A stretch of 47,587 bases of DNA, from the NCBI GenBank assembly GCA_032433595.1, contig JASWJB010000332.1, forward strand, positions 1-47,587, in the 5' to 3' direction. The notes under the pieces are model-generated. The model worked only from the letters and a program-made list of their open reading frames with translations. It was not told where the DNA came from and did no database searches. The DNA is from Conoideocrella luteorostrata (taxonomy: Eukaryota; Ascomycota; Sordariomycetes; Hypocreales; Clavicipitaceae). Position numbers and translations under genes: made by a program. Below, piece by piece: positions 3,308 to 9,901 of this stretch (position 1 is the first letter of the stretch; the number at the start of each line of letters is the position of its first letter).

Positions 3308-4870
3308 TCAACGGCCCCAGGTGTCTTTGACAGGCCATTTAAATGACTTATCGCAGTCTTTTTGCTTCTCGATCCACTGCTTGATCTTTTTAGTGTTCCA
3401 TCCGCTCATGTATCGTTTGGAGTCGTCGTCACCCTTCTTCGTAGGCTTGCCATGCTTGAACTTGTGGGCCATGCCGCAAATGTTGTTCTGGAAACGAAAC
3501 TGGAAGCAGTTTTCCAGGCTAAGACAAGCTGTCTTGCAGTCGTCAAAACTCTTGTACGCCTCGGCTTCTTCATTTGACAAACCGTCCTTCTTGGCTCGGT
3601 TCACTTCCCACTCCTCATATTGCGCAATTGACGTGTTCAGGTAGTACACATCTTCGCTCAGATTGTCCCAGTCCGGTCGTGCGTCTATCAAGTGGGGGGA
3701 CATGAACCTGTGATACAAGTCCTTGATCCGCAAAGGCTTGGAAAATTTGCGCTCTCGTTCGAATGCGTACAGATCGGAAATTTCCTCAGCCACAGCGTGA
3801 TGCATGGTGACAATGGGATGACACCATTCGTCTTCGGCGTATGGCAGAGTATGTGGCTTCTCGCCATTGATAACAGGCCACTGCGATACGTTAGCTACCC
3901 TGCACCGTCAAGAGAGCGGAGCTGGTGTGGCTGAGATGATGATGCTTACCGCATTGACAACTTCGATGCCTGTCTCATCCTTGAGAGCCTGGGACCACAT
4001 GGCGTCACCACAGCAAACATGCTGAACCGGTTCGTCATACTTATTTGCGACGCCGGTTTTGCCATAGAACATGGCATGCATGGCAGCCTTGGAGACGAGA
4101 TATCCGCTTCCGCCGTGACCAAACGGCAGCGAGCCCAAGTAGGCGACGCTTCCGATGTAATGAGGCTTGTTGGGGTCTAATTCCTTCAGCCACTCCACCA
4201 AGTTTGGAAAAGCGACGTAGGTGTCGGCGTCGATAAATAGATACCAGTCGTAGTCGGGTCGCATATGATAAGCCTTCTCTGCCATATGGATGTTCTTGTA
4301 TTTGTCCAGATCCCATCCCTGCTTGGCAGTATCATGGTTCTTGTTGCATTGCTCTTGGTCGATGGGGCATTTCTTCTGTCGATGATACAAATCGAAGTCT
4401 TTGTTCGTCTGCTTGACCTCGTTCAGAACGGTGTCGAGGCTGTCGTGAATAGTGTAGCCACCAATCTTTTGAGCCATGTCGCTGAAGACGAGAAAGTCTG
4501 GTAGACACTTGAGGTTGGTCATCAGCTGAGTGGGAATCTTCGAGTAGGCTTCGGAGGCGCCAGTCTTCATGACCGTCAATACGCTGGATGTATTGGGGAA
4601 ATTGGCGCACTCGTCACTGAGCGTAGCGGACTGAGAGCTGGATGGGACATGCTGACTGCCGGAGTGAGTTTTGTCGTTGGTGGTGTTCCCGCTGGCCTCA
4701 TTGTTTCCAAAGCTAGGCAACTTCTTACGCAGGCCTGAAACGTCACAATAGCTTCCATCCTCACAGAATTTCCCCATGTTTCTCGCTGTAAGCAACAAAA
4801 CTCCCATAAACGAGAAAATGACAAAAAGTAGGAGGAGTGTCCTCCTCGGAAAAATTCTTGGCGGTGACAT
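3308..4870 (-). CDS. GT31 family glycosyltransferase, type II membrane protein
   Basis: Predicted 497-aa Golgi-type glycosyltransferase of the Fringe/beta-1,3-galactosyltransferase superfamily (CAZy GT31). Exons are 4870-3950 and 3880-3308. The 69-nt intron has GTAAGC, branch site GCTAAC and CAG, and it keeps phase 0. A single transmembrane helix lies at about residues 10-29, followed by a Ser/Thr/Asn-rich stem. The metal-binding DxD is the DAD in YLFIDADTYV at about 214-216. HGGSGY (about 252-257) and CCGDAMW (about 286-292) fit the acceptor side. A Cys cluster at about 422-442 resembles a PAN/apple segment. I chose the ATG at 4870 because it places the helix at the N terminus. ATGs at 4927 and 5065 are possible, but the extra residues mostly come from a translated pyrimidine tract. 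Donor and acceptor sugars cannot be read from the sequence. Confidence 0.88.
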
Positions 4871-4981
4871 CTTGCCGATTATAGGTAATAAAGGCGAGGA
4901 GGGTTTCTCCAAAATACCGACCATCATCGAGATTGGCCGAGACTTGTAGTTGGTGCCCGACAATTCGAGCGTCGAGAGAGC

Positions 4982-5018
4982 AAAGAGAAAGAAAGAAAGA
5001 AAAGAAAGAAAAGAAAGC
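4982..5018. repeat. Polypurine tract upstream of GT31
   Basis: A GAAA/GAAAA-rich run; on the coding (minus) strand it is a CTTT-type polypyrimidine tract about 110-150 nt upstream of the chosen GT31 start. Such CT tracts are common in fungal promoters and leaders. Confidence 0.6.
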
Positions 5019-5497
5019 AAAAACAGCAAAAGTAACAGCGAGGCGACAGAAATTAGGATGAGCAAATGCGAGGCGATATTTCAAGTCCAAAAGCACGCGA
5101 CGCTATGGTACTGTCGTGTCAGCGGCGCCTGTGGATTGTGTGTTCAGGAGAAGCGCGAGCACGTTGTGCCGGATCCGGAACTGACAGCAGCCAACAGAAG
5201 CGAATGCCGGAGATGGCCAGATAGGGGCCGATCGCCTATTTACGCGGTTCTCGAATGCGTCAGCAACTTGCGACTGGCCATGCAAGTGTGTGATGAACCA
5301 GATTCGAATGAGGTGAGCAAATGAAGGATACGGAGACGGATGCAGAGGGAAGCGAGCGCTGAAGAAGGGTGATGAGAAGCGAAGGAGAAGCAAGCATCAG
5401 CGCTGCGAGTGTCGCTTGCACCCAACCAGAAAGTCACCAGTGTGGAACCTGGCGAACTTTGACCCCGTTGCGGCATATGCTGCATGTGGGCAGGCTG

Positions 5498-7308: not shown

Positions 7309-8692
7309 TCAGAGTTCGTCCCTAGCTTCTTCTGTGCCGAGTGAGCCTGGAGACTTGTCTTGTCCCGTCCATGAGGGGATTTTCCCTCGCGAAATCGCCG
7401 TGATAAACGTTTCAATATCCTCGGCGTTAATGGGGCCACTGGAGCCTCTGAACGGGAAGACTTGGCCGTTCCGTGTGTTTTCAACGACGAGACCTTTGTC
7501 CGATTTCAGACCCATTGCACGCGGCATGTCCTGGTACTCGGTAACGTCAACCGTGACAAATGTAAGATATTCTTGGTAAGTCTTTGCAAGCGGCCTCATT
7601 TTTTCAACGTATAAATCCCGATCGGACTTGTCATTTGTGAAATAATGAACCAATGACTTTCCTGTCTATTTGAAATTAGTCCATGTTAAGTTCTAGTATT
7701 TGATATGAGGACAAGCATTACGAGGAACCAAGACATGTTTGCGGCGTAGGACGGACCTGTGTGTGCTTGGCCTCTGACTTTCGCGTCAGAGGGGGAATCA
7801 AAGGCTCAGTGCAGGTCTCGACGAATCTGTCTATTGCCCCTATGCGGGTCAAACTCGTCTCGACATATTGCAAGCCGTCAATGTTGTTGAAACACCGTAT
7901 GGAGTTTGCTTCTTGCCCTTGGTCCCCCAGGTAGCCAAACGTGTAGCGATCGCGATATACTTCAGCAATTGCAGTAAATCGATCTGACAACGCGTCGTTA
8001 CTGTGCTGAAAGTGTGCAACGAAGACAAAGTCATCACCGGTCGAGAAGGGGGTTAGTTCCGAGCCGCTCAGCCTAGTAACCGCAGGCTGTTGTCTTCTTC
8101 TGAAGAAAGACGCGATTCTGCATCAAATCAGAACTTGCCCTGTAGCGGATCAAGGTTCAGAGAGCCAGACACTTACGATGCAGCAGTTCGGGGCCCTCGA
8201 TATCGAGCCATGGTTTGCTCTCCATGATACAACCGAACTGCAGGGAAAGAAGCCACGTCCATCATCGAGCACAGGTCCGGTGCAGCGGTGCAGTCGATGG
8301 ACGTAGCAGTCGAGAAGTTATTTTGGAGTGCAGTCCATTCTGGTAATAGAGCTTTGCTTGCCTCACTTACCGCCGTCAGTTATTCTCTCTTACAAGCAAA
8401 GGCATCTTAACTAGACCAGTGACTTACTGGTCGGACTGCGGCATTGAGTTGCGTTTTGTCAGCGTTAAGAAGCAGCGCGTTTGTAAGACTGGTACTCACC
8501 GCAACGACTGCGTAACTCCTAGTTAGCATATTGAGCTCGGCTCTATTCTCGTTTCTTCAGGGACTCACAGGCAACTAGAGTATAGCGGTTCCGCGCCAAA
8601 GCCAAGTGCAGCCCTTCCGGCGTAGTATGATTCCAAGCGACTGCGTGGCCGGCAAAGACGCCAATGGCGACAGTAAGGCGTAGAAATATCAT
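7309..8692 (-). CDS. Redox-inactive PDI-like protein with RDEL tail
   Basis: Predicted 348-aa ER-lumen protein with thioredoxin folds. Exons: 8692-8569, 8507-8500, 8435-8428, 8365-8177, 8117-7757 and 7665-7309. The N terminus (MIFLRLTVAIGVFAGHAVA) is a signal peptide. The first domain aligns without gaps to the canonical PDI stretch FFAPWCGHCKALAPEY, but here reads FVASDHEASKALLPEW. CGHC is therefore HEAS (residues 47-50) and no CxxC occurs elsewhere. A second domain begins near DDFVFVAHF, and a third runs from GKSLVHYFTND. The protein ends in RDEL, a KDEL/HDEL-type retrieval signal. It is shorter than standard PDI (about 500 aa) and lacks the last catalytic domain. Introns are 59-64 nt except the last (91 nt). 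Exons 2 and 3 are only 8 nt each, and intron 3 ends in AAG, so this part is the least certain. The gene is divergent from a prolyl 4-hydroxylase. Confidence 0.82.
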
Positions 8693-9073
8693 CGTCTGTT
8701 GGTACAATCAGGTTGTCGCGTGACGACAAGATTGCTGTATTCCTGTCCTATGGAATCTCCTTGCCAGGAATGTAAGGAAAAGACTTGCATAATAGATTGG
8801 AACAGTTTACAAGTAATGCGACTTTCAATTCTGTGACATGACGCTCGTGGCAGGGGCAGCGATGACGCCGGGATGGCACAACACGAGATGAGCCACTGTT
8901 TCGAGTTGCCCCATACGCTTCAGGTTACAAGTAGTTAACACGGACCTAAGAAAGGCGTCGCTCAATAGCTCAATCTCGTTCAACTTGAACGCAAACCCGT
9001 TTTCCGTTCATTTTGGAACAAGGACGGCACAACAAAAAAGAGGAAGGAGAAGAGTCGGTAGAATCTCGCCGTC
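8693..9073. promoter_or_regulatory. Shared divergent promoter, PDI-like / prolyl 4-hydroxylase
   Basis: The two start codons are 381 bp apart and point away from each other, so one intergenic stretch must hold both promoters. A small inverted repeat, TTGTCG-N5-CGACAA (8713-8729), lies about 20 bp from the PDI-like start. The last 60 bp before the hydroxylase ATG are purine-rich. I see no element I can name with confidence. Confidence 0.6.
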
Positions 9074-9901
9074 ATGTTCTCTTGGTCAGGGCAAGCACGC
9101 TCTTTCGCGATACTTGCAGTGGCATTTGTCGTCGCTGCGCAAATGCAGTCACCAATCTCCGAGGCATACAGCTGCACGCACCCGCCATATAAAGTTCGCA
9201 TCGTCAGCAAGTCTCCGCTGGTTGTATACCTCGAGGACTTCTTAACACCTGGTGAACAGGTGCACCTCCTAGATCTGGCGTGAGCTGTCCAATTCCCGCT
9301 CAAGCATCACTGACTTACACGATTCAGACGAGGCCAATTCAAGCACTCCGCTATCCTCGACTCGTCAGGCACAGCAGCCATTCATTCCGTCCGCACCTCA
9401 CAGTCAACATCCGTCGAACGGTCACCGGTTGTGCGCTGTATTGAGCAGCGAGCCCTCGACTTCCAAGGCTTTGACACCCCCTCCACGCACCTCGAACCCA
9501 TCCAACTTGTTAAGTACGCCGCAACTGAGAGGTACCACTTCCACACGGACTGGTTCACGGATGATGCGTACACGACTGTGGCGATGGGCGGCAATCGCGC
9601 AACTTCAATATTTGGGTACGTCAAGGCCGAGAATGTGACGGGTGGAGGCACGAATTTCCCAATGCTGGAAACACCGACAGATGAGAGGTGGTGTGAGTTT
9701 ATTGATTGCGATGAGGAGTACGAGAGAGGGGTCACCTTCCGGCCAGTGGAGGGGAATGCAGTATACTGGGAGAATATGATTGGGGGAAGAGGTGATCCAA
9801 GGGTGCTGCATGCCGGCTTGCCGGTTGCGAATGGTGAGAAAGTCGGGATGAATATCTGGACGAGGGAAGGACCTTTGCCAGGTGATGTGAGGGGTGAATA
9901 A
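9074..9901 (+). CDS. Prolyl 4-hydroxylase, 2-oxoglutarate/Fe(II) dioxygenase
   Basis: Predicted 259-aa enzyme that would hydroxylate peptidyl proline using 2-oxoglutarate, O2, Fe(II) and ascorbate. Exons 9074-9279 and 9328-9901 flank a 48-nt intron (GTGAGC, ACTGAC, CAG). Residues about 11-30 form a signal peptide or signal anchor, placing the enzyme in the secretory pathway. The iron ligands are H141 and D143 (YHFHTDW) and H230 (VLHAGLPV). K240 lies exactly ten residues after the distal His, the spacing of the 2-oxoglutarate-binding Lys in collagen prolyl 4-hydroxylase alpha subunits. GMNIWTR follows, as in the family. It is a catalytic domain only, without the peptide-binding and dimerisation domains of animal alpha subunits. 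It has no HDEL-type tail, unlike its divergent PDI-like neighbour. The substrate is unknown. Confidence 0.93.

Follow-up and report, generated by a model that had tools for sequence, protein, structure and literature searches.

Animal collagen prolyl 4-hydroxylase (C-P4H) is an alpha2-beta2 enzyme whose beta subunit is protein disulfide isomerase (PDI). According to PMC9676403, the PDI subunit of the human enzyme is needed for a soluble and competent alpha subunit and carries a KDEL tail. It touches the CAT domain of the alpha subunit via the CGHC motifs of domains a and a' and via the b' pocket, with the largest contribution from a' and b', and the soluble complex requires CAT residues between 281 and 304 (PMC9676403). 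The short-chain algal prolyl 4-hydroxylase (P4H), Chlamydomonas P4H-1 (3gze/2jig), differs in being monomeric, according to the same paper. PDI-family proteins also act as subunits of other proteins of the endoplasmic reticulum (ER) in the EDEM/Htm1-PDI, MTP-PDI and tapasin-ERp57 complexes, so that, together with C-P4H, a structural role for PDI has precedent. To our knowledge the EDEM/Htm1, MTP and tapasin complexes use ordinary PDI or ERp57 and not a dedicated redox-dead gene, and we know of no PDI-like neighbour of Chlamydomonas P4H-1. Here we analyse a head-to-head gene pair on a 47.6-kb contig (47,587 nucleotides, referred to in full as the window) of Conoideocrella luteorostrata, a fungus that infects scale insects. 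The pair encodes a PDI-like protein (8692-7309, minus strand) and a P4H (9074-9901, plus strand), and the divergent arrangement around a shared region of 381 bp (8693-9073) is exactly as initially annotated. We tentatively propose that the PDI-like protein, retained without catalytic function, is a holder and dedicated ER partner of the tail-less short-chain P4H in a putative complex.

A truncated, non-redox PDI-like protein

The PDI-like protein comprises 348 residues and matches Pfam families PF00085 and PF13848, the latter corresponding to the b' domain. The features first ascribed to it, a signal-like start (by hydropathy), a terminal RDEL and the lack of any CxxC, are all found. Thioredoxin folds, ER signal and ER-retention tail place it in the PDI family in the broad sense, and the missing CxxC active site sets it apart from catalytic PDIs. 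An alignment with C571, the genome's own canonical PDI (508 residues, two CGHC motifs), shows HEAS at the first CGHC and a chain that stops after b'. The resulting a-b-b' architecture, with the a' domain absent, had escaped the initial annotation.

The family comprises 56 rows, i.e. the window's own entry and 55 relatives; 42 rows were complemented by 14 from a further search, in which scoring was restricted to the 7993 candidates with the most words in common. None of the 55 relatives has a CxxC at the CGHC columns, where 12 show only gaps and four more are partly gapped; the 12 are fragments or apparent mis-annotations. Five relatives retain one cysteine, at the last CGHC position, and two (P0003, P0007) have a CxxC elsewhere in the chain. 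Among the 100 columns of the canonical a' core, the window protein fills none and the relatives fill between 0 and 25. An xxEL tail is found in 41 of the first 42 rows and in 12 of the 14 later ones. Several residues that are not found in canonical PDI are strongly conserved in 53 rows, a count that omits the three most distant ones (P0174-P0176): C185 and E225 occur in 53/53, R222 and R103 in 98% and C212 in 49/53. The AlphaFold model of the M. acridum entry P0002 (pLDDT, the predicted local distance difference test score, 90.9) aligns over its full length to PDI a-b-b', and its best structural matches include EDEM/Htm1, MTP, tapasin and C-P4H complexes.

A phase-1 intron lies at the same codon (LAE/LVA, then T|TC) in the window gene and in the canonical PDI gene, which argues that the PDI-like gene arose by duplication. 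As read from its sequence, it derives from a copy of the canonical PDI of fungi, with a' and the catalytic cysteines of domain a lost. Since frame, residues, tail and the missing CxxC are conserved across relatives, the family has been kept as a non-redox one and is not a product of decay; its members would serve as non-redox, ER-retained binding proteins. Mammalian ERp27 and PDILT are likewise ER-retained PDI family members lacking a working CxxC. However, ERp27 is b-b' and PDILT has two a-type domains (PMC3500226), whereas the fungal family is a-b-b' and, unlike these two, derives from fungal PDI as indicated by the shared intron.

The family is spread over Sordariomycetes and some Leotiomycetes. 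The distant rows P0174, P0175 and P0176 have LDSV or FEPC at the CGHC columns, and one of them is from a Talaromyces. As Talaromyces belongs to the Eurotiomycetes, the family is possibly older than the split between Sordariomycetes and Leotiomycetes. Our search of the open-access literature, subscription papers lying outside its scope, found no report of a fungal P4H/PDI pair or of a redox-dead a-b-b' family. The accessible part of PMC12333218 describes human, plant and viral P4H introduced into Aspergillus niger and names no native pair.

A short-chain prolyl 4-hydroxylase lacking an ER-retention tail

The P4H has 259 residues and a single Pfam domain (PF13640), and is identical to the database protein QQS21_010822 (P0043). 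As annotated at the outset, it combines a signal-like segment (by hydropathy) with the complete H141/D143/H230/K240 set and lacks an ER-retention tail. The set provides the HxD...H iron site and the lysine for 2-oxoglutarate, placing the protein among the 2-oxoglutarate-Fe(II) dioxygenases. A search for relatives gave 455 matches, and the counts rest on the 120 listed; in the 84 aligned rows among these the H/D/H/K set is invariant. The AlphaFold model (pLDDT 88.2) has the P4H fold. Residues 37-252 align to human 325-523, preceded only by the signal-like segment. Judged by these features, the protein is a soluble secretory short-chain enzyme with neither an ER-retention tail of its own nor a strong membrane anchor, and hydroxylation of peptidyl-proline is its predicted activity. 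The only other P4H homolog returned by a protein search of the same genome (C592, L009; 40% identical) has a strongly hydrophobic N-terminus, which suggests a membrane-anchored protein. A Pfam search gave five PF13640 loci in this genome in all.

Genomic association of the two genes

Both genes have conserved families and are thus more than a chance observation. The adjacency sought in other fungi is seen in some of them. Both genes were found listed in 11 assemblies, and in 10 of these they lie on contigs of equal length, which we used as a proxy for the same contig; all adjacency counts cover this gene pair alone. Eight of these pairs were matched by script (Conoideocrella, O. australis, P. 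didyma, P. lavendulum, S. alkalinus, E. macrotheca, Cercophora sp. LCS_1 and P. conica) and the remaining two, D. grovesii and S. bragantina, by reading the tables. C. fioriniae and D. rosae were left out of the count since their two rows are from different strains. Four of the ten pairs, from Hypocreales and Sordariales, carry consecutive locus tags: the window itself, O. australis (CDD81_6143/6144), Cercophora sp. LCS_1 (OQA88_8323/8324) and Echria macrotheca (QBC47DRAFT_448781/448782). Several of the shared contigs are small (118, 145, 588 and 694 kb). Those of 4-5 Mb say little, as the chance of a shared contig is about 0.11-0.13 each for genomes assumed to be 40 Mb. The product of these chances is not taken as a probability, since it disregards the miss in Colletotrichum falcatum, the several P4H copies per genome and the way in which pairs were chosen. 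PDI-like rows carry the names of 24 genera, and 16 of these are also represented among the P4H rows listed, 120 of 455.

A number of observations weigh against a dedicated partnership. The C. falcatum genes lie on contigs of unequal length (88034 versus 165739, taken as one assembly). The P. didyma pair is doubtful because this species has three P4H rows and the one on the same contig, of 5.3 Mb, is not the ortholog closest to that of the window. The P4H group is far wider than its presumed partner, with 455 matches versus 56 PDI-like rows (at different thresholds), and among the P4H rows of Xylariales, Diaporthales and Exophiala there are many without a PDI-like row, the PDI searches being word-limited. 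These P4Hs without a detected partner also lack ER tails, so that retention does not in general depend on the PDI-like protein; their wide occurrence speaks most strongly against retention as its general function, and a retention role common to all these P4Hs is rejected. The paired P4Hs form no clade among the listed rows (58/120; 9 changes, with 221 of 500 shuffles as low). The correlation of pair distances is modest and confounded (r 0.47, reached by 30 of 5000 permutations, uncorrected for species phylogeny).

Comparison with C-P4H and alternative explanations

The initial annotation had regarded the pair as a fungal counterpart of C-P4H, a reading that is partly supported. What stands of this is a conserved non-redox PDI family linked to P4H; membership in the animal C-P4H system does not hold. 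The pair shares with the animal enzyme (human CAT-PDI, 7zsc) the combination of a P4H catalytic domain with a PDI-family protein, and an ER-retention-type tail on the PDI-family protein only (xxEL in 53 of 56 rows versus a tail ending in EL in 2 of the 120 listed P4H rows). However, the animal beta subunit is a full a-b-b'-a' PDI while the fungal protein lacks a', and the CGHC motifs of a and a' that contact alpha give way to HEAS in the window, with CxxC at those columns in 0/55 relatives, 12 of which show only gaps there. The animal alpha subunit also has dimerisation and peptide-binding domains and an N-terminal CAT extension that the 259-residue fungal P4H lacks. Direct membership is rejected on account of the missing a' domain, CGHC contacts and CAT extension, and the best reading is that the pair is analogous to C-P4H. 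Unlike the C-P4H complex, a complex of the fungal pair is putative.

Under the partnership that we favour, a PDI duplicate that lost a' and the catalytic cysteines of its a domain has been retained as a non-redox ER binding protein. It occurs together with a tail-less soluble short-chain P4H, whose gene it adjoins in several species. We infer that the two proteins may function together, and the simplest arrangement would be a heteromer whose PDI-like subunit keeps the P4H folded and in the ER. Such a unit would be analogous to the role of the animal C-P4H beta subunit, having evolved independently and with a different interface. If the pair binds, the interface would be largely its own, since the cysteine and a' contacts are impossible and there is no room for the CAT extension. 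It is possible, if somewhat doubtful, that filamentous fungi, independently of animals, evolved a putative two-subunit secretory P4H with a dedicated PDI duplicate, free of a' and redox chemistry, as its beta-like subunit.

Linkage and shared occurrence would fit equally well if the two proteins worked in the same pathway and formed no stable complex, the PDI-like protein being a non-catalytic peptide-binding chaperone that holds unfolded P4H clients. The b' pocket of PDI binds peptides (PMC9676403) and ER-retained non-catalytic members such as ERp27 and PDILT exist (PMC3500226). Nevertheless, such a chaperone has no known client, and the region of R222 and E225, peculiar to the family and located where b' begins, would suggest a specific surface; we consider this explanation unlikely, if to be taken seriously. 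Rather unlikely, in our estimate, is that the proteins do no joint work and that their genes are simply co-regulated from a common divergent promoter or have stayed neighbours by descent. Divergent gene pairs can persist for their shared promoter, the equal-length proxy is weak on multi-megabase contigs and P4H is widespread without a detected partner. Against this, consecutive tags are found for this pair in two orders, Hypocreales and Sordariales, between which gene order is usually shuffled, and the shared region is without a full element of the unfolded protein response (UPR) as judged by a consensus search.

The structural match to EDEM/Htm1 raises the option that the PDI-like protein serves another ER partner, such as an EDEM/Htm1-type mannosidase, with the P4H a mere neighbour. 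This match is expected for a fungal PDI homolog and the linkage to P4H would be left unexplained, which makes this option very improbable. That the PDI-like gene is a decaying pseudogene, its cysteine loss being part of the decay, might be suggested by its tiny exons and one weak acceptor. It is hardly credible and was rejected, since relatives keep the frame, the invariant residues and an ER-type tail, and family conservation already contradicts it.

If the pair is a unit, natural evolution has separated the structural role of PDI in a hydroxylase from redox chemistry, and this role exists in pure form on its own gene. A defined set of genes would then give fungi a secretory hydroxyproline pathway, and hydroxylated proteins could be produced with a short P4H system of two genes. 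Even without a complex, there is a conserved redox-dead a-b-b' PDI family linked to P4H that is unreported in the open-access literature searched.

Gene structure and surroundings

Table 1. Coordinates of exons and of the intergenic region in the window.
Feature	Position	Strand	Remarks
PDI-like exon 1	8569..8692	-	Signal-like segment, beginning of a domain; followed by phase-1 intron common to canonical PDI
PDI-like exon 2	8500..8507	-	8 nt; relatives of same length
PDI-like exon 3	8428..8435	-	8 nt; relatives of same length
PDI-like exon 4	8177..8365	-	Remainder of dead a domain
PDI-like exon 5	7757..8117	-	b domain with C185 (53/53 rows), start of b'
PDI-like exon 6	7309..7665	-	b' domain, RDEL tail; no a' domain after
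Intergenic, divergent promoter region	8693..9073	.	381 bp, between PDI-like and P4H genes
P4H exon 1	9074..9279	+	Signal-like segment, start of catalytic domain
P4H exon 2	9328..9901	+	Catalytic core (H141, D143, H230 and K240); lacks ER-retention tail

Both 8-nt exons of the PDI-like gene lie around the old active site, and HEAS straddles the junction of exons 3 and 4. This model is backed by relatives of the same length annotated by others; in the region of the 8-nt exons M. acridum has FVVPDHESSKALLPEW and the window protein FVASDHEASKALLPEW, of equal length. The weakest predicted splice site is the acceptor TAAG of the intron 8427-8366. The public entry QQS21_010821 (P0001, 250 residues) begins at Met98, misses the first three exons and thus omits both the signal segment and the greater part of the dead a domain. 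Several PDI-like relatives (e.g. P0003, P0019, P0020) look mis-spliced at the place where P0001 is truncated. The P4H intron measures 48 nt.

No full HacA-type UPR element was found in the shared promoter by a consensus search, and a full element is rejected there; the short core of the consensus matches once, at 8709. The same search found none in 600 bp of the canonical PDI promoter either, which makes this control uninformative.

Seven neighbouring frames (window 3308-5080 and 12264-40962) were scanned with Pfam. Five match housekeeping families (APC10, band-7, Nop, a V-ATPase subunit and an AAA ATPase), so that no biosynthetic cluster is evident in the surroundings; for the two at 3308-5080 there was no Pfam match.

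Collagen-like proteins in the genome

The genome holds 15 PF01391 matches in collagen-like reading frames. In the six loci read, most Gly-X-Y tracts have few or no prolines at Y. One of them, L022 (G000:C47:883-1038), has a signal-like start and long Gly-Asn-Pro / Gly-Gly-Asn repeats, with proline at Y in 10 of the 21 triplets of its longest tract; it may encode a collagen-like surface protein and is a candidate substrate only. In a further reading frame, L015 (G000:C26:243144-243530), 43 Gly-X-Y triplets with many Asp, Arg and Glu residues come after a hydrophobic segment.
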